Assembly (NCBI RefSeq): GCF_040438885.1
Contig: NZ_CP159218.1
Span: 4,278,001-4,342,000, forward strand
Direction of reading: 5' to 3'
Length of the DNA stretch: 64,000 bases
Origin: Nakamurella sp. A5-74
GTDB lineage: Bacteria > Actinomycetota > Actinomycetes > Mycobacteriales > Nakamurellaceae
Under the pieces are notes generated by a model that was not told the DNA's origin, made no database searches, and saw nothing but the letters and a program-made list of their open reading frames with translations. The first letter of the stretch is position 1; each line of letters starts with the position of its first letter. Shown here piece by piece: positions 3,959 to 18,361 of the stretch. A program made the position numbers and the translations under genes.

Positions 3959-4575
3959 CTGCGAGCTGCTTCGTCCCCGTCGCAGCGGGTATCGGCTGCG
4001 GCGTGAACGTACTCGATGACATCTGGCGCCCCGGGGTCGGCCTGGTCGTCTGCGGAACCGCAGTCGGCGAGTGTGCGGTGCAGCGGGGCCACCACTATGC
4101 CCAGCGCGGCAACGGATTCTGGCGACTGCTGCACGACAGTGGATTGACGCCACGAATGCTGGCCGCGGACGAGGAGTCGCAGTTGCCGCACCACGACATC
4201 GGGCTGGTCGACCTCGTCAAGGACTCGACGTTGCCCTGCGGCTTCGACGTGGCGCGCCTGGAATCCGTCCTGCGCCAGGCACCTCCGCGGTGGATCGCGT
4301 TCAACGGGCGGGTGGGCGCCGACGCCGTCGCGCTGACCGTCGGCGCACCACGACCGCTGCTGGGCGTCCAGGACTGGATGTTCGCCGGCTCGCGGGTGTT
4401 CGTGCTGCCGAGCAGTAGCGGCGCGAACCAACGCAAGGACCACGGCGGACGGCCCCAGCGACTGGACTGGTGGTCCGAACTCGCCGAGGCCGTACCTGCG
4501 AAGACCCGCCGTCCGGATCGACCACCGGCACCGGCGCTCAGGACTCCGGCGCCTCCAGCAGCACGACCGACTTGA
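3955..4575 (+). CDS. mug: mismatch-specific uracil/thymine DNA glycosylase (MUG family)
   Basis: The protein matches family 2 uracil-DNA glycosylases: GVGLVVCGTAVGE (motif A), NGFWRLLHDSGLTPR and VFVLPSSSGANQR (motif B, which inserts into the DNA helix). These enzymes remove U or T from G:U and G:T mismatches in base excision repair. In E. coli Mug motif A is GINPG, where the Asn positions water; here it is GTAVG, so the catalytic mechanism or substrate may differ. The GTG at 3955 overlaps the upstream stop, suggesting coupling. A GTG at 4003 (MNVLDDIWRPG) matches the usual N-terminus better and may be the real start. The last 38 bp overlap the convergent dehydrogenase gene. Confidence 0.8.
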   Translation: MTASCFVPVAAGIGCGVNVLDDIWRPGVGLVVCGTAVGECAVQRGHHYAQRGNGFWRLLHDSGLTPRMLAADEESQLPHHDIGLVDLVKDSTLPCGFDVARLESVLRQAPPRWIAFNGRVGADAVALTVGAPRPLLGVQDWMFAGSRVFVLPSSSGANQRKDHGGRPQRLDWWSELAEAVPAKTRRPDRPPAPALRTPAPPAARPT

Positions 4576-5551
4576 GCGCTGTCGGGTCGGTGCGGGCCGC
4601 CAGCAGAGCGTCCTCAGCGCGGGCCAGCGGGAAGCTGTGGCTGACGACGGGATCGACCTGCACCGCCCCGGACGCGATGAGCTGCAACGCATCCGGGTAG
4701 GTGTTCGCGTACCGGAACGTCCCGGTCACCCAGATCTCGCGGCTCTGGATCTGCGATACCGGCAGCAGTACCTCGTCCTGTCCCATCCCGATCAGCACGA
4801 CCCGGCCCGCGCGATCCACCCGCGGGAACGCCGCCTGCAGCGCGCGCGCCGATCCCGAGCACTCCAGCAGCACGTCGACCTTTCCCTCATCGACGTCATC
4901 CGGTCGCACGATGTCCAGCCCCAACGATGCGGCGACGCCCAGGCGGTGCTCCGACAGGTCGGTGACGGCGACGGATGCGGCCCCGAAGGCGCGGGCTGCC
5001 TGCGCCGCGAACAGACCGACCGGACCCGCGCCGATCACCAGCACCCGGTCGCCGACGGTGACCGCGGCCTTGCGGCAGGCCCAGATCCCGACCGACACCG
5101 GTTCTGCCATCGCCGCCTGGGTGTCGGTCAGGCCGGCGGGGACCGGGTGGGCGAACGCGGCGTCGAGCACGACGTACTCCGCCAGTGAGCCGTGTACCGG
5201 CGGGGTCGCGAAGAAGACGACGTCGGGGCACAGGTTGTAGCGGCCGGCCCGGCATTGGACGCAGTGACCGCACGGGACCCCCGGCTCGAGGGCGACCCGC
5301 TGTCCGATCCGGGCGACGTCGACCCCGGACCCGACCGCCGTGATCCGTCCGGCGGACTCGTGCCCCAGCACCATGGGAGCTTCGACCACGAAGCCGCCGA
5401 TCCGGCCGTGGTCGTAGTAGTGCACGTCGGATCCACAGATGCCGACCGCAACGACCCTGACCAGCACCTGGCCGGCGCCGGGCTCCGGCATCGGGCAGTC
5501 CTCGATCCGCAGATCGCCCGGACCGTGCAGCACCGCACTCGTATTGCTCAT
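4538..5551 (-). CDS. zinc-dependent polyol dehydrogenase (sorbitol/xylitol dehydrogenase type, MDR family)
   Basis: This 337-residue medium-chain dehydrogenase has a catalytic zinc site at Cys39 (GICGSDVH) and His64-Glu65 (GHESAG), and a full structural zinc lobe of Cys94, Cys97, Cys100 and Cys108. The NAD-binding Rossmann motif is VLVIGAGPVGLFA. The sequence is closest to L-iditol/sorbitol and xylitol dehydrogenases, which oxidise polyols to ketoses. Start ATG at 5551 has an AGGAGAA ribosome binding site. It lies 49 bp downstream of a DeoR regulator gene on the same strand, consistent with one sugar-alcohol operon. It overlaps the convergent mug gene by 38 bp. Confidence 0.87.
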   Translation of the reverse strand: MSNTSAVLHGPGDLRIEDCPMPEPGAGQVLVRVVAVGICGSDVHYYDHGRIGGFVVEAPMVLGHESAGRITAVGSGVDVARIGQRVALEPGVPCGHCVQCRAGRYNLCPDVVFFATPPVHGSLAEYVVLDAAFAHPVPAGLTDTQAAMAEPVSVGIWACRKAAVTVGDRVLVIGAGPVGLFAAQAARAFGAASVAVTDLSEHRLGVAASLGLDIVRPDDVDEGKVDVLLECSGSARALQAAFPRVDRAGRVVLIGMGQDEVLLPVSQIQSREIWVTGTFRYANTYPDALQLIASGAVQVDPVVSHSFPLARAEDALLAARTDPTALKSVVLLEAPES

Positions 5552-5600
5552 CGTTCTCCTGCTCTCGCTGGGCCGGGGGCAGTCGCCTCCGGGGTGCTGC

Positions 5601-6374
5601 TCAGGCCCTGACGACCTCGGGCCCCAGGGCGCTATACCTGGCTGCATCAACCGTGCGCAAGCCCCGATCGGTCACCAGCACGTGGAAGTCGCCCACGTCG
5701 GCGAACCTGGCAAAGCTGTCGACGCCGAACTTGGAGTGCACGCCGACGAACACCCTGCGCCGAGCGCGTCTCAGCGCGCGGGACTTCAATGCTGACACCT
5801 CGGGATCCGGAGTGGTCAGCCCCCGCTCCGGCGAGATCCCGTTGGTTCCCAGGATCGCCAGGTCCAGCACCAGATCGGCCAGCATGTCATCTGACCACGG
5901 GCCCGCGGTGCTCAGCGTCCGGCAGCGGACGGCGCCGCCGAGCACGATCACCGTGTGACCCTCGGCGGCGGCCAGGGTGCCGGCAATCGGGATGGACGTC
6001 GTGATCACCGTCAGCGGTCGATCGAGGGTCACCAGCCGCTGCGCCACCAGGAGGGGGGTGAACCCGTCGTCCAGGAACACCGATTCCGCGGCCCCGAGCT
6101 GGTCGATCGCAGCATCCGCGATCCGTTGTTTCTCGGCTACCAGCTGGGTGGACCGGAATGCCAGGCTGGTCTCGAAGCCCGCCCCGGACAACGCATACGC
6201 GGAGCCGTGGATGCGTCGGACCAGTCCCTGCGCCTCCAGCGCCGTCAGATCGCGACGAACCGTCTCCGGCGCGACACCGAGGCGGTCGGCAAGTTCGGCG
6301 ACCTCGATGTGCCCCTCCGCGCGGGTGGCCAGCACGATGCTGCGCCGACGCTCGGCGTTGACGACCCGACTCAT
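5601..6374 (-). CDS. DeoR family transcriptional regulator
   Basis: The 257-residue protein has an N-terminal DeoR winged helix (AELADRLGVAPETVRRDLTALEAQG, about residues 26-50) and the C-terminal DeoR sensor domain related to sugar-phosphate isomerases, including DDGFTPLLVAQRL, VITTSIPIAGTLA and LAILGTNGISPERGLTTPD. DeoR proteins usually repress sugar catabolism genes and are released by a phosphorylated sugar. It is the first gene of a two-gene unit with the polyol dehydrogenase, which it probably controls. Confidence 0.88.
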   Translation of the reverse strand: MSRVVNAERRRSIVLATRAEGHIEVAELADRLGVAPETVRRDLTALEAQGLVRRIHGSAYALSGAGFETSLAFRSTQLVAEKQRIADAAIDQLGAAESVFLDDGFTPLLVAQRLVTLDRPLTVITTSIPIAGTLAAAEGHTVIVLGGAVRCRTLSTAGPWSDDMLADLVLDLAILGTNGISPERGLTTPDPEVSALKSRALRRARRRVFVGVHSKFGVDSFARFADVGDFHVLVTDRGLRTVDAARYSALGPEVVRA

Positions 6375-6554
6375 CCCCGACCACCTCCGCTCGTGGCCGA
6401 CGGCATCGCTTTTCGTGCACGGCGCTCGACCGGGTGACCGTTCATCAACCCAGCATCGATCCGGTTGGCCTGCCGGACAAGCCCGCAGGCAGCTGCTTCA
6501 GACCCGTTTGCTGCCCGATTCGCCCGCAAGCAGACACCGCATGGTCTCGGAGCG

Positions 6555-7607
6555 TCATCGGGTCAGCTGGTCGACCGCAGCATCGAACACCCTGGGCAGC
6601 CTGGCTGCGGTGCCGACCAGCCGTCGACGCACCGGCTTCTGCCTGCTCGCCGCGAGCAACGACCCGGTGATCCACCGGTAGCGGCGGGTGACCTGCTGCC
6701 AGGCCTGTTCGTAGTCGTCGGGGCGCCCGGCCACCAGACACTGCACCAGCCGCAGTGACGCGCGGGCGGCGATGTCGATGCCCTCCCCGGTCAGGGCGTC
6801 GACGTACCCGGCGGCATCGCCCACCAACAGCACCCGGCCGGACACCCGTCCCTTCACCCGTTGCCGCAGCGGGCCCGCTCCACGGACGTCATCCGCGTTC
6901 GCCCCGGCCAACCGGTCGGCCAGCCCCGGGAACGCGGTCAGGTGCTCGTCGAACGACGCACGGCGCCCGCTCAACACCGCGACCGACACCTCGTCGTCCC
7001 CCACCGGAGTCACGTACACCTCTGCCCCGGTGGCCCAGTGGACCTCCACCAGATCCGTCCAGGGAGCTACCGCCACATGTCGACGCAAGCCCCACCGCGG
7101 TGGGCCGGTGGCCGGCAGCTGCAGACCGAGGCGCTGCCGGATCGGTGAGTGCAACCCGTCGGCAGCAACCAGATGGTCCGCGGTGACGGCGCTCGTCCCG
7201 GACGCGGTGTGCAGCGTCGCAGTGACCGAGTCGGCACTCTGCCGGACGTCACCGACGCGGCCGGCCACCCGTTGGATTCCGCGTTCGGCGGCGAGCCGGG
7301 CGAGCGCGCCCTGCAGGACGTCGCGTCTGACTCCGCGTCCCGGTCTGCCCCGGAAGTGCGCCTCGGCGTGCACATCGCCGTCCAGGTAACGGATTCCGCG
7401 GATCTGACGGCCGGGGACGTCCCGTTGGAGATCCAGTCCCAACGACTCGAGGGAGCGCAGCGCCCCCGGCATCAATCCCTCTCCGCACGCCTTGTCGATC
7501 GGTCCGGTGCGGGGGTCGACGACCAGCACGTCGAGCCCTGCGGCCCGCGCGTGCAACGCCGTCATCAGACCGGCGGGTCCGGCTCCGGCAACCACCAGGT
7601 CGGTCAT
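6555..7607 (-). CDS. FAD-dependent oxidoreductase of the geranylgeranyl reductase / aromatic hydroxylase type
   Basis: The 350-residue flavoprotein has the dinucleotide-binding motif VVAGAGPAGLMTALHA at its N-terminus, an active-site-side segment DKACGEGLMPGAL, and the second FAD motif VLLVGDAAGYVDALTGEGI near residue 270. This layout is shared by geranylgeranyl reductases and p-hydroxybenzoate-hydroxylase-like monooxygenases. Its ATG overlaps the stop of the methyltransferase gene (ATGA), and it ends a three-gene operon with the type III PKS. By analogy with Streptomyces SrsC it may hydroxylate the polyketide ring to a quinol. Reduction of an isoprenoid chain is the alternative, given the nearby UbiA gene. 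Confidence 0.82.
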   Translation of the reverse strand: MTDLVVAGAGPAGLMTALHARAAGLDVLVVDPRTGPIDKACGEGLMPGALRSLESLGLDLQRDVPGRQIRGIRYLDGDVHAEAHFRGRPGRGVRRDVLQGALARLAAERGIQRVAGRVGDVRQSADSVTATLHTASGTSAVTADHLVAADGLHSPIRQRLGLQLPATGPPRWGLRRHVAVAPWTDLVEVHWATGAEVYVTPVGDDEVSVAVLSGRRASFDEHLTAFPGLADRLAGANADDVRGAGPLRQRVKGRVSGRVLLVGDAAGYVDALTGEGIDIAARASLRLVQCLVAGRPDDYEQAWQQVTRRYRWITGSLLAASRQKPVRRRLVGTAARLPRVFDAAVDQLTR

Positions 7608-8116
7608 GCTGTCACCGTGGCCAGCGCCGCGTTCTCCGCCCGGATGCGCACCGTGAGCACGGCGGTGTTCAGGACCGTGAAGCCCACCGCGGTGATCCAG
7701 GCCGAGTGCACCAACGGAAGCGCGGCGCCCTCCACCACGACGGCGACGTAGTTCGGGTGCCGCAGCCACCGGTAGGGGCCGGAGCGCACCAGAGGGACGG
7801 TCGACGCCACGACGATCCGAGTGTTCCACTGCCGACCGAGAGTGCTGATGCACCACCAACGCAGCGCCTGGGAAGCCAGCACCAGCAGGAACATCGACCA
7901 GCCGAGGGCAGGCAGGAAAGGTCGATCGGCAACGAGTACCTCGACGACGCAGCCGACCAGCAGACCGACGTGCAGCACCACCATGGCCGGATAGTGGCCG
8001 CGGCCGAACTCGCGGCCACCGCGGGCGCGACTCCAGGCCAGGTTGCGGGTGCTCACCACCAGTTCGGCGACCCGCTCCAGTCCGACGACGACGACCAGCA
8101 CCAGGTAGGCGATCAC
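7604..8116 (-). CDS. isoprenylcysteine carboxyl methyltransferase-family (ICMT-like) membrane methyltransferase
   Basis: The 170-residue membrane protein has about four to five helices and the family motif GPYRWLRHPNYVAVVVEG, where SAM binds in ICMT/PEMT enzymes. In bacteria, members beside type III polyketide synthases (Bacillus BpsB, Streptomyces SrsB) O-methylate alkylpyrones or alkylresorcinols. The GTG start at 8116 overlaps the PKS stop by 4 bp (GTGA), and its own stop overlaps the next start in the same way, so all three genes are coupled. Protein isoprenylation is not expected here, so a polyketide substrate is the better inference. Confidence 0.82.
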   Translation of the reverse strand: MIAYLVLVVVVGLERVAELVVSTRNLAWSRARGGREFGRGHYPAMVVLHVGLLVGCVVEVLVADRPFLPALGWSMFLLVLASQALRWWCISTLGRQWNTRIVVASTVPLVRSGPYRWLRHPNYVAVVVEGAALPLVHSAWITAVGFTVLNTAVLTVRIRAENAALATVTA

Positions 8117-9177
8117 CACTGCAGCAGTACCAACTCGGAGCAGAATCCGGGCCCCAGAGCCATCATCACGCCGATCTCGCCGGGTGCCGGCCGTCGATCT
8201 CGTTCGATGTCGGCCAGCACGTGCAGCACCGAGGCGGACGACAGGTTCCCGACCCTGGCCAGCGAATCCCACGTCGGCTGCAGTGCGCCGTCGGGGAGAT
8301 CCAAGGTCGTCTCGATGGCCCTGATCACTTTGGGACCGCCGGGATGGGACACCCAGGCGGAAACGTCGTCGATGGTGAAGCCGTTGTCCGCCAGGAACTC
8401 CCGGACATCCGGACCGAGGCACTTCTCGACAAGTTCGGGGACGCCGGCGTCCAGCACGATCTTGAGTCCGGACGGAACGACGTCCCAGCCCATCGTGCGC
8501 ATCGTGTCCGGATAAAGATGACTGCGGGAGGCGATCACCCGCGGGCCGTCCGCTCCCATGGCGGCGGCGCGCTCGGCCCCGACCGCGACCACAGCTGCAG
8601 CGCCGTCTCCGAACAGGCCGGACGCCACCGCGTTGGCCATCGACGGGTCGTCGCGCTGGACCGTCAGCGAACAGAGCTCAACCGACAGCAGCACCGCGAC
8701 CTGGTCGGGGTGTCCGGCCAGGTGATCGTGCAGCCGCGCAACCCCGGCGGCGCCGGCGACGCAGCCGAGTCCGAACAGCGGCATCCGCACCACGTCCGGC
8801 CGCAGACCGAGTTGGCCGGCGATGCGGGCCTCGATGGACGGCACCGCTACCCCCGTGATCGTCGTCGAGATGATCAGATCGACTTCGCCGGGCGCGATGC
8901 CCGCCACGGCCAGCGCACCCTTCACCGCCTGCTCCCCCAGCTCGGAAGCCACCTCGATCCACACCTCGTTGGCGGACCGCACATCGGTGAGACCGGCATA
9001 GGCCTCGAGCGGACGGGCGAGATGGCGGAACTCCACCCCGGCGTTCGCGTGCACCCGCTCCAGGACCCCGCGTCGGGTCGGGTCGGGGAGGCACAACTCG
9101 GCGAACGCGGCCGTCAGCTCGGCCTGCGGATATCGGTGAGGAGGGACCACACTGTGCACGGCGACGAGGGTGGTCAT
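8113..9177 (-). CDS. type III polyketide synthase (chalcone/stilbene synthase family)
   Basis: The 354-residue thiolase-fold enzyme has the complete catalytic triad: Cys139 (LFGLGCVAGAAG), His278 (WVSHPGGPK) and Asn311 (RVGNLSSAS). The GPGFCSE element near the C-terminus is also typical. Such enzymes extend a fatty acyl starter with malonyl-CoA units and cyclise it to alkylpyrones or alkylresorcinols. It is the first gene of an operon with an ICMT-like methyltransferase and a flavoprotein, the same set found in Streptomyces srsABC and in mycobacterial polyketide-quinone clusters. The product is therefore probably a membrane lipid phenol or quinone. Confidence 0.92.
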   Translation of the reverse strand: MTTLVAVHSVVPPHRYPQAELTAAFAELCLPDPTRRGVLERVHANAGVEFRHLARPLEAYAGLTDVRSANEVWIEVASELGEQAVKGALAVAGIAPGEVDLIISTTITGVAVPSIEARIAGQLGLRPDVVRMPLFGLGCVAGAAGVARLHDHLAGHPDQVAVLLSVELCSLTVQRDDPSMANAVASGLFGDGAAAVVAVGAERAAAMGADGPRVIASRSHLYPDTMRTMGWDVVPSGLKIVLDAGVPELVEKCLGPDVREFLADNGFTIDDVSAWVSHPGGPKVIRAIETTLDLPDGALQPTWDSLARVGNLSSASVLHVLADIERDRRPAPGEIGVMMALGPGFCSELVLLQW

Positions 9178-9278
9178 TCCCTCACCGTACGGCCGCGACC
9201 CAGGAGCTGGAGCCGGCAGTGCTGGGGGGTGGACACGCTCGGCGGTACCCGCGGAGCGGTGCCCCCTAACATCGAGGG

Positions 9279-10109
9279 ATGAGCCGGGTGCGCGGTCTGC
9301 TGCTGGCCTGTCACCCGTTGCCGACGCTCGCGGTGACCGTGATGGCGGCCTTCCTCGCTGCTGCCGTCGGCCTGCCGGTGGGTACCGTGCTGCTCGTCGT
9401 GGGCGCAGTACTCACCGGGCAGCTGTCGATCGGCTGGCACAACGACCTGCTGGACGCCGAGCGGGACAGCTCCGCACAGCGCACCGACAAGCCGATGGCC
9501 ACCGGAGGCGTCGACCGGCGGACCCTGCAGGTCGCGACCGCGGCTGCCTCGGTCGCGACGATCGGACTGTCGGTACTGCTGGGCTTCCCGGCCGGCGGGG
9601 CAGCGTTGGTGATCGTGGTGTGCGGCTGGGGTTACAACCTGGGCCTGCGGGCGACCGCGCTGTCCTTCGTCCCTTATGTCATCGCGTTCGGCGTCCTGCC
9701 CGCGGTGCCGACGCTGGCCCTGCCGGGTGCGCCCTGGCCGTTCTGGTGGGCGATGACCGCCGGCGCCGCCCTGGGCGTCGCGGCGCATCTGCTCAACGTG
9801 CTGCCCGACCTGGACGACGACCTGCGCAACGGGATCCGCGGACTCCCGCACCGGATCGGGGTCCGCGGCAGCATGGCGGCGACGATGCTGCTGGTGCTGG
9901 TCGCTGCTGCTGCTCTGCTCTTCGGGCCGGCCGGGCCGGTTTCCTGGTGGCGCTGGGCAGCGTTCGGTGTGCTCGTCGTCGCGGGGGTGTGGGTGCTGGC
10001 GCGGTCGGCCGCGGCTCCGGGGCGGGCGCTGTTCCGGGTGCTGGCAGCCTCAGCGGCGTTGGACGTGCTGCTGCTGGCCGTCTCCGGGACGACGATCGTC
10101 CGCGGCTGA
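9279..10109 (+). CDS. UbiA family prenyltransferase
   Basis: The 276-residue protein has about eight to nine predicted membrane helices and both aspartate-rich Mg-prenyl-diphosphate sites: NDLLDAERDSSAQRTDKP (about residues 55-72) and LPDLDDDLRNGIRGLPHRIG (about 174-193). UbiA enzymes attach prenyl chains to aromatic rings, or to sugars or lipids. It is divergent from the type III PKS gene with about 100 bp between the starts, so it may share regulation and prenylate the aromatic polyketide. That link is inference; an unrelated lipid substrate is possible. Confidence 0.88.
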   Translation: MSRVRGLLLACHPLPTLAVTVMAAFLAAAVGLPVGTVLLVVGAVLTGQLSIGWHNDLLDAERDSSAQRTDKPMATGGVDRRTLQVATAAASVATIGLSVLLGFPAGGAALVIVVCGWGYNLGLRATALSFVPYVIAFGVLPAVPTLALPGAPWPFWWAMTAGAALGVAAHLLNVLPDLDDDLRNGIRGLPHRIGVRGSMAATMLLVLVAAAALLFGPAGPVSWWRWAAFGVLVVAGVWVLARSAAAPGRALFRVLAASAALDVLLLAVSGTTIVRG

Positions 10110-10130
10110 CGGCCCGCTGCAGGCGGCGCC

Positions 10131-10197
10131 GATCGAGCGAACGCAGTGAGTCGAGATCCCGTCGTGATTCGACCGGTCGCGACGGATCGGGGTCTCC
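10131..10197. repeat. dispersed GATCGAGC...TCGAGATCCC repeat, copy A
   Basis: The block begins GATCGAGCGAACGCAGTGAG, followed by TCGAGATCCCGTCGTGATT, and ends in the inverted-type segment GACGGATCGGGGTCTC. It matches, mostly in inverse orientation, the arrays at 26.9, 38.7 and 63.8 kb. It lies in a gap between two convergent genes, just before a terminator-like hairpin. It has no coding potential. Confidence 0.65.
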
Positions 10198-10217
10198 AGG
10201 CGTCCGGACAGCACACC

Positions 10218-10251
10218 TCCGGCCCGCACCGATGCTCTGGTGCGGACCGGA
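10218..10251. terminator. hairpin between convergent genes
   Basis: Arms CCGGCCCGCACC (10219-10230) and GGTGCGGACCGG (10239-10250) pair over 12 bp with one mismatch around an 8-base loop, with an extra T-A pair outside. It sits between the ends of the UbiA gene and the Gfo/Idh oxidoreductase gene, and probably terminates both. Confidence 0.65.
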
Positions 10252-10272
10252 AGTGTTGCAGTGCAGGAGATC

Positions 10273-11394
10273 TCAGAGCGTCGCGGCGACCGGATCCCAA
10301 CCGTCGGGGAGCAGCTCGCTGCGCGGAGCGGTGCTGGTCAGCGGGACGTAGGCCTTCTTGTCCGCGGACCGGATCGCTGCTTCCATCAGCTCGGTGACGT
10401 GCCTGGCTCGCTCGCCGGTCGCTCGGTGCGGCGCACCCGCACGGATCGAGCGGGCCATGTCGAGCACACCCATGCCGCGGCCGTCGGACGGGCCGACCAG
10501 CGGGATGGACTTCCACTCGTCCTCACCGGTCCGGCAGATGCGCAGCTCGCCGTCGAAGTTGTTCGGGTCCGGGATCGACAGCGTCGCCTCGGTGCCGGTG
10601 ACCTCGACGAAACCGGCGCGCACCCGCGGCGACTCGAAGCTGAAGATGCTCTGCGAGGCACCACCTTCGACGAAGTCCGTCTGCAGACCCACGTGCGTCG
10701 GCACGCCGACCTCGAACTCCGTCCCGGCCTTCGGACCGCTGCCGATCACCCGGGTCGCCCTTGCCTTGCGGGAGAGCGCCAGCACGCCGGCCGCCGGCCC
10801 GAACACCTCGACCAGCGTGGTCAGGTAGTACGGCCCCATGTCGAACAGCGGGCCCGCGCCGGGTTGGAACAGGAACTCCGGCGCCGGGTGCCACGATTCG
10901 GGACCGGGCGTCTGGAACAACGTCAAACCGGTCTGCGGAACGCCGATGTCGCCCCGTTCGATCACCCGGCGGGCGGTCTGGATCCCGGCGCCGAGCACGG
11001 TGTCCGGAGCACAACCCAGCCGCAGACCCGCGGCGGCCGCCGCGTCCACCAGGGTGGAGGCGTCCACGCTGTTCATCGCGAGCGGCTTCTCCGTCCAGAC
11101 GTGCTTGCCGGCGGCCAGGGCACGCGAGGAGACCTCGAGATGAGCGGCCGGGATCGTCAGGTTGATGATGATCTCGACGTCCGGATGCTCGAACGCCAGC
11201 TCCGGAGCACCGGAGAGGTCGATGCCGAACTCCTCGGCCTTCGCCGCTGCGACCTCGGGCAGCAGATCCGTGAGTGCGACGACGTTGATGTCCGGGAACC
11301 TGGTGAGGTTCTCCAGGTACGCCCCGCTGATGACGCCGGTCCCGACCAGTGCGACGCCGACCGGCCCGGTGCGGTTCTGGTGCGGAGCCCCCAT
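10273..11394 (-). CDS. Gfo/Idh/MocA family oxidoreductase
   Basis: The 373-residue protein has the N-terminal Rossmann motif ALVGTGVISGAYLENL and the family signature WTEKPLAMN (EKP, Lys for substrate binding) in the first domain, then the beta-sheet substrate domain. These NAD(P)-dependent enzymes oxidise or rearrange sugars, inositols and related polyols. The start ATG shares one base with the stop of the upstream sugar isomerase gene (TGATG), so the two are coupled and probably act in one inositol- or sugar-acid-type catabolic route. The exact substrate cannot be told from sequence. Confidence 0.88.
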   Translation of the reverse strand: MGAPHQNRTGPVGVALVGTGVISGAYLENLTRFPDINVVALTDLLPEVAAAKAEEFGIDLSGAPELAFEHPDVEIIINLTIPAAHLEVSSRALAAGKHVWTEKPLAMNSVDASTLVDAAAAAGLRLGCAPDTVLGAGIQTARRVIERGDIGVPQTGLTLFQTPGPESWHPAPEFLFQPGAGPLFDMGPYYLTTLVEVFGPAAGVLALSRKARATRVIGSGPKAGTEFEVGVPTHVGLQTDFVEGGASQSIFSFESPRVRAGFVEVTGTEATLSIPDPNNFDGELRICRTGEDEWKSIPLVGPSDGRGMGVLDMARSIRAGAPHRATGERARHVTELMEAAIRSADKKAYVPLTSTAPRSELLPDGWDPVAATL

Positions 11395-12200
11395 CAGCCG
11401 GTCGCGGCTTCGAGCCACCGCAGCGAGTTGGTGACACCGTCGAAGATGTCGCCGCCGTAGACGTCGAACTCGACGATCGCCAGATCCAGCCACGGCGCAG
11501 CGGCCAGTGCGGCGCGTAGCGGAACGTCGCCGGTGCCGGCCGGGATCTGCGCGTCCAGTCCGCCGCCGGTCGGGCCGTCCTTGACGTGCACCAGCTGCAC
11601 CCGCTCGCCGAGCCGCTCGAGCAGGCCGACCGGGTCGACACCGCCGACCCAGGCCCAGTACAGGTCGAGTTCGAGCACCACGTCGGGGTCCAGGTGCTGG
11701 GCCAGGAACTCCAGCGCCGGGACGCCGTCGTACTTCGTCGCCAGCTCCCAGTTGTGGTTGTGGTAGCCGACGCGCAGACCGCGCAGGGCGGCAACCTTGG
11801 CGGCCGCGTTCAGCGACTCGGCGATGCGTACCGCGTCCTCCGCGGTCGCCCACTTGTCGTCCCGCACCATCGGCTCGATGACCGTCTTCACCCCGACGAT
11901 CTCGGCGGCGTCGAAGGCGGCGGTGATGTCCTGTCCGACCAGGTGGGCGTGCCCGCTCGGCGCGATCAGACCGGCGGCCTTCAGCGCCTGCGCATAGCGC
12001 TGGGCCTTGTCGGTGGCGTCGGTCTCCTCGACCGCGGCCGGCGCGTCACCGTTATCGCCTGTGTCCACCACGTCGACGGTGCCGACGAAGTCGAACGCCT
12101 CCACCGCGGTGAAGCCGATGTCGGCCAGGCGCTGGAGGGTGCCGCCGAAGTCTGCGACGAGCGGTTCACGGACGGTGTACAGCTGGACAGAGGTCTGCAT
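11394..12200 (-). CDS. sugar phosphate isomerase/epimerase (xylose isomerase-like TIM barrel)
   Basis: The 268-residue protein of the AP-endonuclease-2 / xylose-isomerase-like TIM-barrel superfamily starts MQTSVQLYTVREPL. It shows VGYHNHNWE (metal-ligand strand), VVLELDLYWAWVGG and VQLVHVKDG in barrel order. Members isomerise or epimerise keto sugars, or dehydrate inosose. It is the first gene of a two-gene unit with a Gfo/Idh oxidoreductase, a very common pairing in sugar and inositol catabolism. Confidence 0.88.
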   Translation of the reverse strand: MQTSVQLYTVREPLVADFGGTLQRLADIGFTAVEAFDFVGTVDVVDTGDNGDAPAAVEETDATDKAQRYAQALKAAGLIAPSGHAHLVGQDITAAFDAAEIVGVKTVIEPMVRDDKWATAEDAVRIAESLNAAAKVAALRGLRVGYHNHNWELATKYDGVPALEFLAQHLDPDVVLELDLYWAWVGGVDPVGLLERLGERVQLVHVKDGPTGGGLDAQIPAGTGDVPLRAALAAAPWLDLAIVEFDVYGGDIFDGVTNSLRWLEAATG

Positions 12201-12454: not shown

Positions 12455-13789
12455 TCAGGCGAGCCAGCGCTGGACGGCGCCGATGACGTCGAACACCAGC
12501 AGCAGCCCGGGCAGCAGGGCGAGGACGGCGAGGAACTCGATCGCCTCGTAGAAGCGGCGCAGCCGGGCCTTCGGCACCTCGGCGAGCGTGCTCAGGCCGG
12601 TGGCGAGCAACAGCACGGCGATCAGCACCAGTACCCCCAGCGTGATGCCGGCGGCGGTCCTGGCATCGGTCACGCCGAACCAGGCCGGGATCCGGAGCCC
12701 GATGGCAGCGCCGGCGAGCACCGGCACCGCGAGCATGGGGACCACCTGACGCACCCGGGAATACATCCGGCTGCGCAGCGCGAACACCAGCGCCCCGAGG
12801 ATGCCGACACCAGGGATCGCCCAGCCGGATTTGATGCCGATGACGGGGGCGGTGATCAGCAGCACCACTGCCGCGGACACCGCGACCGAGACCGCCCAGA
12901 CCATGCCGGTGGCGATCGCGCCGCCCCGGTTCACCGCGCCGACCACCGCGGTCCGCGGCACCTTCTCGCCACGCTCGTCGGCCACCAGCAGATTCACCAG
13001 ACCGGCTCCACCGAGGGCGAACTGACCGGCAAGACCGGCAACGATCACCCCGAGCACGACGATCAGGCCCGCGGTCCGGTAGCCCTGCAGCTCGGTCGCC
13101 GTCATCACCCAGGTGAGGACCGAGAACACCAGGGCGGTGATGCCTCCCGCGGTGGCGACCGGCAGCCGGCGCACCAGGCCGGCACCGAGCAACCCGATCG
13201 AAGCTGCCACCGGCAGCAACACCGTCGCACCCGCGGATGCACCCGACTGAAGTGCCGACAAGCCGAGCACTGCGGCGGGCACGGCCGTCATCGCCGCGAG
13301 CGTCGCGCCGAGCCCGGTCATCGTCGCGCCGATCCCCAGGGCGCCGATCAACGCGAGCGCCGGGGCCACCCAGTCGATCGGCGACGGAGCCACCAACCCC
13401 AGGCCGCACGCCCCGAGCAGCAGGACGGCCAGCAGGCCGGCGATGCCGGAGCTCCGGTCACCCGCGCAGAACGCGGGCTCCTGCGCCACCAGATCGCCGG
13501 CGGTCTGCTCGACGTCGTCGACGAACGGCGGCAGCGCCGCCTCCTGTGCCTCGGTCAGATGCAGCACCATGCCGTCGAGCACGCCGGTCTCGTCCAGCGA
13601 TGCCGAACGCGGGATGACACCCAGCTCCGGCGTGGAGAGCACCCACCGACGCGGGGTCGAGGAGGTCGGGACCGACAGCAGGCGCAGCACCATCGGCAGC
13701 TGCTCGCCCACGGGGGCGGCGGCCGGTAGGGAGACGTCCACCTGACGGTCGGTGGCGGCAATCGTCACCCTGGTGAAGCGGGTCGCCAT
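12455..13789 (-). CDS. eccD: type VII secretion integral membrane protein EccD
   Basis: The 444-residue protein has an N-terminal ubiquitin-like domain (about residues 1-85: FTRVTIAATDRQVDVSLP ... LDETGVLDGMVLHL), then eleven predicted membrane helices filling residues 115-440. This is the EccD architecture. EccD dimers form the cytoplasmic vestibule of the ESX core complex. Start ATG at 13789 gives the usual short N-terminus. It is divergent from eccC with about 270 bp between the starts, so a shared control region is likely. EccB, EccE and mycosin genes are not in the window. Confidence 0.92.
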   Translation of the reverse strand: MATRFTRVTIAATDRQVDVSLPAAAPVGEQLPMVLRLLSVPTSSTPRRWVLSTPELGVIPRSASLDETGVLDGMVLHLTEAQEAALPPFVDDVEQTAGDLVAQEPAFCAGDRSSGIAGLLAVLLLGACGLGLVAPSPIDWVAPALALIGALGIGATMTGLGATLAAMTAVPAAVLGLSALQSGASAGATVLLPVAASIGLLGAGLVRRLPVATAGGITALVFSVLTWVMTATELQGYRTAGLIVVLGVIVAGLAGQFALGGAGLVNLLVADERGEKVPRTAVVGAVNRGGAIATGMVWAVSVAVSAAVVLLITAPVIGIKSGWAIPGVGILGALVFALRSRMYSRVRQVVPMLAVPVLAGAAIGLRIPAWFGVTDARTAAGITLGVLVLIAVLLLATGLSTLAEVPKARLRRFYEAIEFLAVLALLPGLLLVFDVIGAVQRWLA

Positions 13790-14056
13790 CGCGGTCTCTC
13801 CACACCTGCTCGAAAGGAAGGGGCCGGCCGTCGGAAGCACCGGGCGACGAAGCGTCCGGCCACCTGTCAGGCTTCGGCGAAACGACGGTGGCGCCGCCGG
13901 GCCGACCGTAGTCTAGGCATGTCCGGACGCCCGGAACCGGCGTTTGAGCCTCATGCTCGGGACGGCGCCCGCACCGACGGCCGTCGGGTGACCGACGACG
14001 GACCCGACCGGCTCCGCCGCGGACATCGGTCGAACAGCACAGGACGAGGAGGCTCC

Positions 14057-17000
14057 GTGACGCAGCGACTCGTCCACCGACCGGCGCGTAGCAGGCCGCC
14101 GGAGCCCGACCTCCGGCCGATCGAGCTGATCCCGCCGCCACGACTGCCGGATGCCGGCGCCGGCATCCAGGGCGTCATGCAGATGCTGATGCCGATCATG
14201 GGCGGCATGGGATCGCTGGTGATGATCCTGGCCAACCGGAACCCGATCATGCTGATCGCCGGCGGAATCATGCTGGTCGTCACCGTCGTCGGCGGCATCG
14301 TCATGTTCATCGCCCAGCGCACCGGCGCGACCAAGCGCGCCGCCGACATGCGGGCGCGCTACCTCGAGTACCTGGAGCAGGTGCGCGGCAAGGTCTCCGG
14401 CTCTGCCGAGGTGCAGCGGGAGATCGCCGAGTACCACCATCCGCGCCCCGATCTGCTGCCTGACCTGGCCCGGGACACGCTGCGACTCTGGGAACGCCGG
14501 CCGTCGGACCCCGACTTCCTGATCGTGCGGGTCGGCACCGGTGCTGCGCCGCTCTGGCAGCGGGTCGCCGCTCCCGCCGCCGCAGATCCGCTGGCCGAAC
14601 CGGACATCGTGACCGCCGCCGGGGTGCACCGGATCGTCGAGCGTGACCGGATGGTGGGCGGGATGCCGGTCTGCCTGCCGATCGCCGGCCGGGTGACGGT
14701 GCTGGGCCAGCCGGCCCTCGTCCGCCGGACGATGTCCGCGGCGCTCGCCCAGCTCGTCACCTTCCACGGCGCGGAGGAGGTCAAGGTCTTCGCGCTCACC
14801 CCGCGGCACGCCGCACGCTGGGTCGAGTGGCTCAAGTGGATGCCGCACGTGCTGTCCGACGACGAGGTGGACGCCACAGCACCCCGTCGACACGTCACCT
14901 CCGACCCGCAGGAGCTGATGGAGTGGCTGGCCGGCGAGTTGTCCCGCCGGGTCGCCGAGCTCACCCGCAGCGGCCGGGCCAGGTCGGCCGCCCCCTCCAG
15001 CTTCGGCGCGGCGTTGGTGATCGTCGTCGACGGGGTCGGCGGCGGCGCACCCGACGTGCTCGGCGCACTGCCCCCGGACATCTCGCCGGCCCGCCTCAAC
15101 ATCCACTGCATCACCCTGGTCGACGACCCCGGCCACGAACCCGAGCGCTGCGACATCCGGCTGACCTGCGGTGACCCGGCGACGGACGGTCCGAGCGGTC
15201 GGGACGGTGATGCTCCGGCCGTCCGGGTCGACGACCTGCGCGTGGTCGACCCCGACGACACGCACGCCGAGCTCCAGCGCCGCGCAGCCGGCGCCAGGGC
15301 CGGCGACCTCGACCTCATCGAGGACGCCGTACTGCAGGGCCTCGTCCGGGAGCTGACGGCAGTCCGACTGGTCGAGGAGAGCGCGACGGCGGCACCGCTG
15401 GAGTCGACACTGACCCTGTCCGACCTCACCGGCGTCGAGGATCCCGGCCACTTCGACCCGCTCGCCGCCTGGACCAAACGGTCGATGCCCGATTTCCTCA
15501 ACGTGCCCTTCGCGCTCGGCCCGTCCGGCGAGAAGGTGCGGTTGGACCTCAAGGAGAACGCCCTCGGCGGGATGGGCCCGCACGGGCTCTGCGTCGGGGC
15601 CACCGGCTCCGGCAAGTCCGAGGTGCTGCGCACGCTGGTGCTCTGCCTGGCGATCAACCATCCGCCCGAACGGCTCGCGCTGGTGCTGGTCGACTACAAG
15701 GGTGGCGCGACCTTCGCCGGCCTCGAGGAGACCCCGCACTGCGCGGCGATGATCTCCAACCTCTCCGACGACGACGGGCTCGTCGACCGCCTGCACGACG
15801 CCCTGTTCGGCGAGATGAAACGCCGTCAGCAGCTGCTCGCGCTGGCCGGCAACGTCCCCAACGTCACCGAGTACAACCGGCGCCGGGACGCCAACATCGC
15901 CGAGGGCAACGGCACCGAGCTGGAGCCGCTGCCGAACCTGTTCTGCGTGATCGACGAGTTCGGCGAGCTGCTCAGCGCCAAGCCGGAGTTCATCGAGCTG
16001 TTCCTGGCGATCGGACGGATCGGCCGCTCCATCGGCGTGCACCTGCTGCTGGCGTCCCAACGGCTCGAGGAAGGTCGGCTGCGTGGGCTCGAGTCGTACC
16101 TGAGCTACCGACTCGGGCTGCGGACGTTCAACCCGCAGGAGTCCCGCGCCGTGCTGGGCGTGCCGGATGCCTACGAGCTGCCGCCGATCCCCGGGTCCGG
16201 GTACCTGGCCGTGGACACCACCGTCTTCCAGCGGTTCAAGGCCGGCTACGTCTCGGGTACCTACAAGCCGCCGATCACCGGCGACACCGTGATCGACACC
16301 GATCCGATCGTCGCCCCGTTCCCGCTGTTCAACGACACCGCCGCCTATCTGGCCGCGATGGCGCCCGAGGATGCGGTGGTCGAGAAGCCGGAGGACGACG
16401 ACGCGGAGGCGCTGCTGCCGACGGTGCTCGACGTGGCTGTCCGGCAGATGGCCGAGGTCGGCACCCGGACCGCGCAGATCTGGCTGCCGCCGCTGCCGAA
16501 ACGGCTGGATCTGGACACGCTCGCCGGCGACGCGATCGCGGACCCGGTCCGCGGGCTGCGACTGCCGGTCGGCGGCAACCTCCGGGTGCCGATCGGGATG
16601 CTGGACAAACCCGCCGAGCAGAAGCAGGAGCCGTACCTCATCGATCTGGGCTCCTCCGGCGGCCACCTGGCCATCATCGGCGCTCCGCAGACCGGCAAGT
16701 CGATGCTGCTGCGCACCCTGATCGTCGCGGCCGCGATGACGCACCTGCCGGGCGAGGTCGCCTTCTACTGCCTCGACCTGGGCGGCGGCGCGCTCCGGCT
16801 GCTCGAGGGACTGCCGCACGTCGCCGGCGTCGCTGCCCGGCTCGACACCGACCGGGTGCGGCGCACCGTCGCCGAGGTCGCCACCGCCCTCGCCGAACGC
16901 GAGGAACTGTTCGCGCGCATGGGGATCGACTCGGTCGAGCAGATGCGCGACCGCTTCCGCACCGGCCGACTCCGCCAGATGGACGTCGCCGACATCTTCC

Positions 17001-18361
17001 TGGTGATCGACAACTGGCCGGTGCTGCGCGCCGACTTCGAGGACCTCGCCGACCTGGTCCAGGACCTCGCCACCCGCGGCCCCGGCTACGGCATCCACAT
17101 CATCATGACGATGGGTCGCTGGGCCGACGTCCGGACCGTGCTGCAGGCCGCGATCGGTGCCAAGATCGAACTGCGGATCAACGACCCGATCGACTCGACG
17201 ATCGGCCGGAAATTCTCTGCCAACCTGCGCTCCGACACCCCCGGTCGGGCCATCGTCGATCCGGGTCTGCAGGTGCACGTCTGCCTGCCGACCCTCGCGG
17301 CCGACCGCGCTCTCGATCCCGCGCTCGCCGGAGAACCGGTGGAGGACAACGGCTTCGGGCCGCCAGTGACAGAGACGGCCGCCGAGCCGGATGACGAGCG
17401 GGCGGCGCTGGCCGATGCCCTGGATCTGCTTGGTGGCGAGTCCGCGGACCCGGCGGACGGCGCGCCCGGACAGACCGGTGAGCAGCCGGACGAGCTGCTG
17501 GAGCCGGCGCCCGGCGGCGGCGCACCTGACGGCAGCGGCGCCACCGAGCAACTGATCATCCGGATCGCCGGGGCCTGGCCCGGCGAACGGGTGCCGGTGA
17601 TCCGGATGGTGCCGACGCTCGTCGACCATGCCGAGCTGGTCGCCAGGACCGGTCCGACGAAGGGCGCGATCATCGGTGTCGACGGCACCGAGCTGAAGCC
17701 CGTCGTGCTCGACCTGATGGGCCTCGACCAGCACCTGCTGGTGTTCGGCGACGCCGAGTCCGGCAAGACGTCGCTGCTGCGCGCCATCATCACCGACCTC
17801 ACGAGCAAGTACACCGACGAGGAGATGGTCTTCGCCGTCTTCGACATCCGCCGCACGCTGCTGGACGTCGTCCCCGAGGAGTACCTGGGCGCGTACGCCG
17901 GAACCGCGCAGCTGGCCGGACCCACCGCGCAGGCGGTGGCCTCCGAGGTCGGCAAGCGGCTGCCCCCCGATGACGTCACCGCCGCTCAGCTACGCTCCCG
18001 ATCCTGGTGGAAGGGGCCGGAGATCGTGGTGGTCTGCGACGACTACGACCTGCTCGCGACCGGGGGGCCGAGCCCGTTGTCGCCGTTCCTGGAGTTCCTG
18101 CCGCAGGCCAAGGATCTCGGCTTCCACATGCTCATCTGCCGTCGCTCCGGCGGAGCGAGCCGGGCGATGTTCGAGCCGTTGCCGCAACGGATGAAGGAGA
18201 CCGGGGCGACCGGTCTGCTGCTGTCCGGTGACCGGATGGAGGGGCAGCTCTTCCCGGGTGTCTACCTGAGCCCGCAGCCCCCCGGCCGCGGCACCCTCAT
18301 CCGGCGCGGGCGCAAGCCGCAACTCATGCAGGTCGCCTACCTGCCGGATCCTGAGGCCTGA
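14057..18361 (+). CDS. eccC: type VII secretion ATPase EccC (FtsK/SpoIIIE family)
   Basis: The protein of about 1434 residues has two N-terminal membrane helices (about residues 36-80), then three P-loop ATPase domains with intact Walker A motifs: GATGSGKSEVL near residue 515, GAPQTGKSMLL near 877 and GDAESGKTSLL near 1232. It is the single-chain form rather than split EccCa/EccCb. EccC is the motor that recruits WXG100 substrates through its last domain and gates the ESX channel. GTG 14057 is chosen because GAGGAGG lies 6 bases upstream and VTQRLVHRPAR is the typical EccC N-terminus. The frame is also open from an ATG at 13919. Confidence 0.95.
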   Translation: MTQRLVHRPARSRPPEPDLRPIELIPPPRLPDAGAGIQGVMQMLMPIMGGMGSLVMILANRNPIMLIAGGIMLVVTVVGGIVMFIAQRTGATKRAADMRARYLEYLEQVRGKVSGSAEVQREIAEYHHPRPDLLPDLARDTLRLWERRPSDPDFLIVRVGTGAAPLWQRVAAPAAADPLAEPDIVTAAGVHRIVERDRMVGGMPVCLPIAGRVTVLGQPALVRRTMSAALAQLVTFHGAEEVKVFALTPRHAARWVEWLKWMPHVLSDDEVDATAPRRHVTSDPQELMEWLAGELSRRVAELTRSGRARSAAPSSFGAALVIVVDGVGGGAPDVLGALPPDISPARLNIHCITLVDDPGHEPERCDIRLTCGDPATDGPSGRDGDAPAVRVDDLRVVDPDDTHAELQRRAAGARAGDLDLIEDAVLQGLVRELTAVRLVEESATAAPLESTLTLSDLTGVEDPGHFDPLAAWTKRSMPDFLNVPFALGPSGEKVRLDLKENALGGMGPHGLCVGATGSGKSEVLRTLVLCLAINHPPERLALVLVDYKGGATFAGLEETPHCAAMISNLSDDDGLVDRLHDALFGEMKRRQQLLALAGNVPNVTEYNRRRDANIAEGNGTELEPLPNLFCVIDEFGELLSAKPEFIELFLAIGRIGRSIGVHLLLASQRLEEGRLRGLESYLSYRLGLRTFNPQESRAVLGVPDAYELPPIPGSGYLAVDTTVFQRFKAGYVSGTYKPPITGDTVIDTDPIVAPFPLFNDTAAYLAAMAPEDAVVEKPEDDDAEALLPTVLDVAVRQMAEVGTRTAQIWLPPLPKRLDLDTLAGDAIADPVRGLRLPVGGNLRVPIGMLDKPAEQKQEPYLIDLGSSGGHLAIIGAPQTGKSMLLRTLIVAAAMTHLPGEVAFYCLDLGGGALRLLEGLPHVAGVAARLDTDRVRRTVAEVATALAEREELFARMGIDSVEQMRDRFRTGRLRQMDVADIFLVIDNWPVLRADFEDLADLVQDLATRGPGYGIHIIMTMGRWADVRTVLQAAIGAKIELRINDPIDSTIGRKFSANLRSDTPGRAIVDPGLQVHVCLPTLAADRALDPALAGEPVEDNGFGPPVTETAAEPDDERAALADALDLLGGESADPADGAPGQTGEQPDELLEPAPGGGAPDGSGATEQLIIRIAGAWPGERVPVIRMVPTLVDHAELVARTGPTKGAIIGVDGTELKPVVLDLMGLDQHLLVFGDAESGKTSLLRAIITDLTSKYTDEEMVFAVFDIRRTLLDVVPEEYLGAYAGTAQLAGPTAQAVASEVGKRLPPDDVTAAQLRSRSWWKGPEIVVVCDDYDLLATGGPSPLSPFLEFLPQAKDLGFHMLICRRSGGASRAMFEPLPQRMKETGATGLLLSGDRMEGQLFPGVYLSPQPPGRGTLIRRGRKPQLMQVAYLPDPEA

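Follow-up and report, generated by a model that had tools for sequence, protein, structure and literature searches.

The window analysed here, a stretch of 64,000 nucleotides from Nakamurella sp. A5-74 (contig NZ_CP159218.1, positions 4,278,001 to 4,342,000 of the forward strand), carries three coupled genes for a type III polyketide synthase (PKS), a methyltransferase and a flavoprotein, with the gene for a UbiA-family prenyltransferase reading away from them. Work on operons with such a trio (srs/pkq type) has treated them as three-gene sources of a quinone with a protective or respiratory role, and the question raised by this locus is whether the prenyltransferase belongs to the pathway and what the four genes would then make. 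The UbiA gene proved to be linked to the PKS in most PKS-bearing members of the genus and in many other actinobacteria, and we propose, at about even chances and by analogy with known systems, a four-gene phenolic-lipid pathway in which the trio would make an alkyl-methoxyhydroquinone and UbiA would O-prenylate it.

Gene content of the locus

The features of the locus are as follows (window positions; aa, amino acids; FAD, flavin adenine dinucleotide):

9177-8113, minus strand: type III PKS of subfamily PKS-A (srsA/pkqA/PKS11-like), 354 aa, Pfam matches above cut-off
8116-7604, minus strand: ICMT-type integral-membrane methyltransferase, GTG start, PF04140 at 100 bits (cut-off 24)
7607-6555, minus strand: FAD-dependent monooxygenase-like protein (FAD_binding_3), ATG start, PF01494 at 82 bits
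9178-9278, no strand: intergenic gap separating the PKS start from the divergent UbiA start, 101 bp by gene coordinates
9279-10109, plus strand: UbiA-family prenyltransferase, divergent from the PKS, 276 aa, PF01040 at 84 bits (cut-off 34.2)

The PKS has both domains of the type III fold (PF00195, Chal_sti_synt_N, 53 bits; PF02797, Chal_sti_synt_C, 58 bits; cut-off 27) and a Cys-His-Asn catalytic triad, C139, H278 and N311, with N311 in a GNLSS motif and with C139 and H278 kept in 113/113 aligned PKS rows, the window's own included. The trio is coupled, as read from the sequence, with a 4-bp overlap (GTGA, 8113-8116) between the PKS and methyltransferase genes and another (ATGA, 7604-7607) between the methyltransferase and FAD genes. 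The UbiA protein carries the two Asp-rich motifs of its superfamily, N55-D56-x2-D59-x3-D63 (NDxxDxxxD) and D177-x3-D181 (DxxxD), which are invariant in an alignment of 24 sequences; a PDB sequence search with this protein gave no match at E 1e-3. An earlier note on this DNA had described three genes coupled by 4-bp overlaps, of the kinds known from srsABC and mycobacterial polyketide quinones, and a divergent UbiA about 100 bp away with both Asp-rich motifs, and all of this was borne out, the same three families being found in the same order in four Streptomyces loci (L167, L175, L188 and L189).

The 101-bp region between the divergent starts presumably holds the promoters of both PKS and UbiA. 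No sigma-70-type promoter match was found in it on either strand, and a scan of 6300-10400 gave zero promoter-like and zero terminator-like sites, against 0.2 and 0.6 in shuffles. The genome, 4.75 Mb in a single contig, matched the chalcone-synthase C-terminal family once, the UbiA family three times and polyprenyl synthases twice.

Linkage of UbiA and PKS within Nakamurella

In a sample of 17 genomes, assigned to Nakamurella by inference, the PKS was found in 13 and UbiA in 12, all 12 among the 13 (12/13 versus 0/4 in the PKS-lacking genomes; Fisher P 0.002, kinship ignored). In each of the 12, UbiA lay within 8 kb of the PKS: it adjoined the PKS in ten (window included; nine divergent, one on the same strand), stood beside the FAD gene in one and was 7.5 kb away in one. 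The thirteenth PKS-bearing genome (G009) had the PKS and methyltransferase alone detected in the stretch read. Random placement would put UbiA within 10 kb of the PKS in approximately 0.004 of cases per genome, and linkage in at least 11 of 13 genomes would have a probability of about 6e-25, kinship again ignored. The earlier note had held its pathway open to refutation if UbiA were not conserved beside the PKS in relatives; the neighbourhood analysis gave the opposite result, in the genus and in the class sample described below.

The surroundings of the cluster differ between genomes. Six genes flanking it in the window, namely the open reading frames (ORFs) for a DeoR-type regulator, an alcohol dehydrogenase, a Gfo/Idh oxidoreductase and sugar isomerase-like, EccD-like and EccC-like proteins, went unmatched in a tblastn search (E 1e-20) of 12 Nakamurella loci, 13-20 kb each, in all 12 of which the window PKS was matched. 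In the window, sugar-catabolism-like genes stand on both flanks (DeoR-type regulator and alcohol dehydrogenase at 4538-6374, Gfo/Idh oxidoreductase and isomerase-like ORF at 10273-12200), as if the cluster had been inserted into a sugar locus, and the ORFs at 12455-18361 resemble the type VII secretion components EccD and EccC, as judged by eye.

Linkage across the order, the class and named genomes

Of 249 genomes sampled from the order, 187 had a PKS match at E 1e-20 and 151 a UbiA match at E 1e-8. Both were present in 144, PKS without UbiA in 43, UbiA without PKS in 7 and neither in 55 (Fisher P 1.4e-20, kinship ignored; the table was counted by hand and pools both PKS subfamilies). In a class sample of 296 genomes, subfamily PKS-A was found at E 1e-80 in 91, and UbiA lay within 10 kb of it in 51 of these, at a median gap of 140 bp; in two of the 91 the UbiA match was at a place not listed. 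By family, the linked PKS-A genomes numbered 7/7 in f33, 13/13 in f34, 10/10 in f31 and 12/13 in f41, with none in f23 (0/6) or f39 (0/4). We infer that f33 is Streptomycetaceae, f15 Micromonosporaceae and f16 Geodermatophilaceae.

A scan of named genomes confirmed at least 576 UbiA loci, of which the best 80 were sorted by whether the neighbouring PKS scored above (PKS-A) or below (PKS-B) 230 bits to the window PKS. UbiA stood by PKS-A in 40 of these 80 (38/40 with both the ICMT and FAD genes) and by PKS-B in 18, and the other 22 had no PKS in the stretch, 12 of them within 5 kb of a contig end. The four-gene version occurs in many actinobacterial genera, among them Nakamurella, Jiangella, Georgenia, Herbidospora, Streptomyces, Kitasatospora, Propionicimonas, Nocardioides, Terrabacter, Janibacter, Ornithinimicrobium, Amycolatopsis, Planobispora, Nonomuraea and Actinospica.

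One UbiA family in two architectures

The linked loci fall into two architectures with the same UbiA family. Type A, that of the window, consists of PKS-A, ICMT, FAD and UbiA genes, and type B of PKS-B (approximately 30-40% identical to the window PKS), a Methyltransf_11 protein, UbiA and, frequently, an acyl-CoA-dehydrogenase-like protein. In Micromonosporaceae, type B has a RadA-like gene and disA as neighbours at one end and carD-ispD-ispF at the other. UbiA relatives recur at this site, flanked by disA and a RadA-like gene and, at the other end, by the isoprenoid precursor genes carD-ispD-ispF, whether a PKS is present or not (L110, 5978-13597; similar loci occur in f15, f16, f12, f9 and f8). 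In two f16 genomes read, UbiA stood at the disA-carD site with no PKS beside it, and the PKS-B and methyltransferase genes were elsewhere; in four f12 genomes read, UbiA was again at the disA-carD site, with PKS-A, ICMT and FAD genes elsewhere.

Quick trees with SH-aLRT support (Shimodaira-Hasegawa-like approximate likelihood ratio test), in which many forks are weak, were made for UbiA and PKS; they omit nine named loci duplicating genomes already present, UbiA pieces of up to 600 bases and PKS pieces of up to 800 bases. In the UbiA tree (129 rows), the type A label required 11 changes, compared with a mean of 42.8 after shuffling (0/500 as low). One supported set of 41 rows took in 32 of the 37 type B rows together with nine that were unlinked, and none of type A fell in it. 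The window UbiA was sister to that of Nakamurella genome G008, inside a supported set of 17 rows (13 type A, four unlinked), and the window PKS was likewise sister to the G008 PKS. In another Nakamurella genome, G010, both PKS and UbiA were nearest to those of Ornithinimicrobium and Janibacter, and the same-strand layout is common to them; since nearest rows and layout agree, this genome probably acquired PKS and UbiA together. Not all pairs agree in this way, as the nearest rows differ between PKS and UbiA in genome G004. Across 57 loci the path lengths of the two genes were correlated (r 0.50; 0/2000 permutations as high), in part because of shared species history.

Since one UbiA family stands beside two partner sets with unrelated methyltransferases and oxygenases, the pairing points to the substrate of the prenyltransferase, which is most likely an alkyl-methoxyhydroquinone, a compound that both sets could make.

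Comparison with known systems

The closest system in kind is the agq cluster (AgqA-AgqD) of Actinoplanes missouriensis (Awakawa 2011, via citing papers), which yields 6-alkyl-4-O-dihydrogeranyl-2-methoxyhydroquinones (product name from PMC3569393) and the UbiA-type enzyme of which is reported as an O-prenyltransferase (PMC3227686). It shares with the window a type III PKS and a linked UbiA-type prenyltransferase, and would also share alkylresorcinol formation and methoxyhydroquinone tailoring; agq-like type B loci of Micromonospora and Paractinoplanes carry the same UbiA family. The tailoring genes differ, as the agq-like loci of Micromonosporaceae, from which the agq gene types were taken, have PKS-B, Methyltransf_11 and acyl-CoA-dehydrogenase-like proteins, whereas the window has PKS-A, ICMT and FAD_binding_3. 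The gene list of type B matches the losA locus, and type B is probably agq, of which orthologous clusters have been reported in Micromonosporaceae (PMC7692728). At losA, in Micromonospora endolithica, UbiA also stands beside a type III PKS and PKS activation gave alkylresorcinols, but the neighbours are agq-like (methyltransferase, acyl-CoA dehydrogenase; PMC7587189). The window would thus not be a member of agq but would work like it. The proposal in the earlier note of a prenylated product beyond the three-gene version is favoured by the linked UbiA, but is not new as an idea, since agq is already known for a prenylated type III PKS lipid.

The trio itself resembles srsABC of Streptomyces griseus and pkqABC of Mycobacterium smegmatis, single operons of type III PKS, methyltransferase and flavoprotein genes that are reported to act by alkylresorcinol formation, O-methylation and hydroxylation (PMC9927152, PMC6669644), the likeness being one of gene families, as read in the Streptomyces loci named above. 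The three window genes are contiguous in the same way; unlike these systems, described as three-gene pathways, the window has a linked UbiA. All four gene types have appeared in print side by side in the type III PKS locus of Gephyromycinifex aptenodytis NJES-13 (UbiA ctg1_2034, stilbene synthase-like PKS 2035, ICMT 2036, FAD oxygenase 2037; PMC8779670), but there they were assigned to a proposed angucycline pathway, and section 2.4 of that paper proposes no prenylated phenolic lipid. Streptomyces niveus is listed with a type III PKS cluster rated '100% alkylresorcinol' (PMC7987185), and in another strain of this species (L167) UbiA adjoins the PKS cluster.

The kind of pathway (agq), the trio (srs/pkq) and the set of four gene types (Gephyromycinifex) are hence already known. 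Our search of the open-licence literature, with most subscription journals outside it, found no proposal of a prenylated product for an ICMT/FAD-type set and no report that such a hybrid set, with its likely prenylated product, is widespread.

Proposed pathway and alternatives

By analogy, the trio would work as srsABC/pkqABC and UbiA as the agq O-prenyltransferase. The PKS would extend a fatty acyl-CoA with malonyl- or methylmalonyl-CoA and cyclise the chain to an alkylresorcinol, the ICMT-type enzyme would O-methylate this, and the flavoprotein would hydroxylate the ring to give an alkyl-methoxyhydroquinone, oxidisable to a quinone. UbiA would then attach a prenyl group, most likely from a geranyl donor as in agq, at a free hydroxyl, and the resulting prenyl-ether lipid would reside in the membrane. 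A hydroquinone that carries a 4-O-prenyl ether has to lose the prenyl group before it can be oxidised to the quinone, and we therefore favour a capped quinol, as a lipid for storage, in masked form or for structure, over a respiratory carrier or new membrane quinone.

Several observations weigh against this proposal. Linkage is not universal, as among the 91 PKS-A genomes of the class sample UbiA lay elsewhere in 20 (any match at E 1e-25, which may take in other UbiA subfamilies) and gave no match at that threshold in 18, of which 13 fall in the single family f7, probably mycobacteria. Phytohabitans strains with agq-like clusters gave no agq masses (PMC7692728), a type B PKS (losA) activated alone in S. 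albus gave alkylresorcinols with no prenyl group reported (PMC7587189), and Streptomyces MNU77, with a pkq-type trio, was reported to make a polyketide quinone in a text that contains neither 'prenyl' nor 'UbiA' (PMC9927152). The best PDB match of the PKS and one of its residues, given below, also lean away from a resorcinol product.

In primary metabolism, UbiA-family enzymes attach the prenyl group to ring carbons. The window enzyme might do so too, in the manner of the ubiquinone enzyme, and its product would then be a redox-active hybrid alkyl/prenyl quinone with a possible membrane role. This was the reading of the earlier note, and the linkage atom is not decided by sequence alone. In M. 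smegmatis and Streptomyces the product of the trio can serve, as it is, as a respiratory quinone (PMC9927152), but the UbiA-type enzyme of agq, which acts on alkyl-methoxyhydroquinones, is reported as an O-prenyltransferase (PMC3227686, with the ether in the product name, PMC3569393), so that a non-cycling prenyl ether is the likelier end product and C-prenylation to a membrane quinone is unlikely.

The PKS might instead make alkylpyrones that the neighbouring enzymes decorate. Its closest PDB match is M. tuberculosis PKS11 (401 bits), which carries the name of an alpha-pyrone synthesis enzyme. Among its residues, L53 agrees with the pyrone-type enzyme of M. marinum, but G190, W231 and V284 agree with the resorcinol-type enzyme of that species (residues from PMC5916927; positions mapped by a numbering offset through PKS11). 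W275, perhaps at the position of ArsB W281, is present in 111/114 PKS rows and does not discriminate, because PKS11 has it too. The sorting of resorcinol from pyrone enzymes by active-site residues came out mixed and was abandoned. Alkylquinones are the products reported for trios that include a methyltransferase and a flavoprotein, and we regard an alkylpyrone product as quite unlikely.

A third alternative concerns the operon flavoprotein, which could reduce the prenyl chain of the UbiA product and not hydroxylate the ring. Its best NCBIfam match is the geranylgeranyl reductase (GGR) superfamily (GG-red-SF), and agq products carry a dihydrogeranyl group, but the match is under the cut-off (121 versus 158.8 bits), and a homologue accompanies the PKS and methyltransferase in f7 (L106 and L108, probably Mycobacterium), where no UbiA of the family was found. 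Other genera, moreover, have a separate GGR-family protein near UbiA or at the cluster end, as 7/10 flavoproteins scanned passed the NCBIfam cut-off (162-187 bits) in both architectures, and a reductase role for the operon flavoprotein is very unlikely. Such proteins stand beside UbiA in Nocardioides (L222, 10798-11847), Jiangella (L159, 10828-11859), Pseudonocardia (L200, 10995-12032) and Nonomuraea (L228, 10938-11984), and are candidate prenyl-chain reductases that would fit the 'dihydro' of dihydrogeranyl. The window genome has a GGR homologue 120 kb away, 45-63% identical to eight proteins of this kind. An obligatory fifth gene of this family was considered and rejected (strong orthologue in 5/17 Nakamurella genomes, all five with UbiA; Fisher P 0.24), and we take it as accessory.

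UbiA might, lastly, stand beside the PKS by chance and serve some other function. In favour of this, UbiA is apart from the PKS in f12 and f16, and 10 of the best 80 named UbiA loci lack a PKS with at least 5 kb read on each side, many of them Microbacteriaceae; but the conserved linkage and co-occurrence, the changed flanks and the joint acquisition speak against it, and it was rejected as having next to no likelihood. The ten loci are L155, L163, L191, L193, L205, L207, L211, L216, L218 and L220, six of which (L191, L193, L207, L211, L218 and L220) are Microbacteriaceae, and most of these six form a UbiA clade of their own.

Implications

Beyond the O-prenylation pathway proposed for the window, a wider and more doubtful view, which we offer tentatively, is that outside mycobacteria the 'three-gene' alkylquinone operon may mostly be a four-gene one with a prenylated end product, the reported srs/pkq quinones being intermediates or one half of a capped/uncapped pair; in its boldest form, a C-prenylated hybrid quinone would be used in respiration. 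If the prenyltransferase belongs to the pathway in many hosts, searches for the products of these operons may have sought the wrong mass, and, if the proposal is true, the prenyl cap would allow a redox-active lipid to be stored or kept silent.

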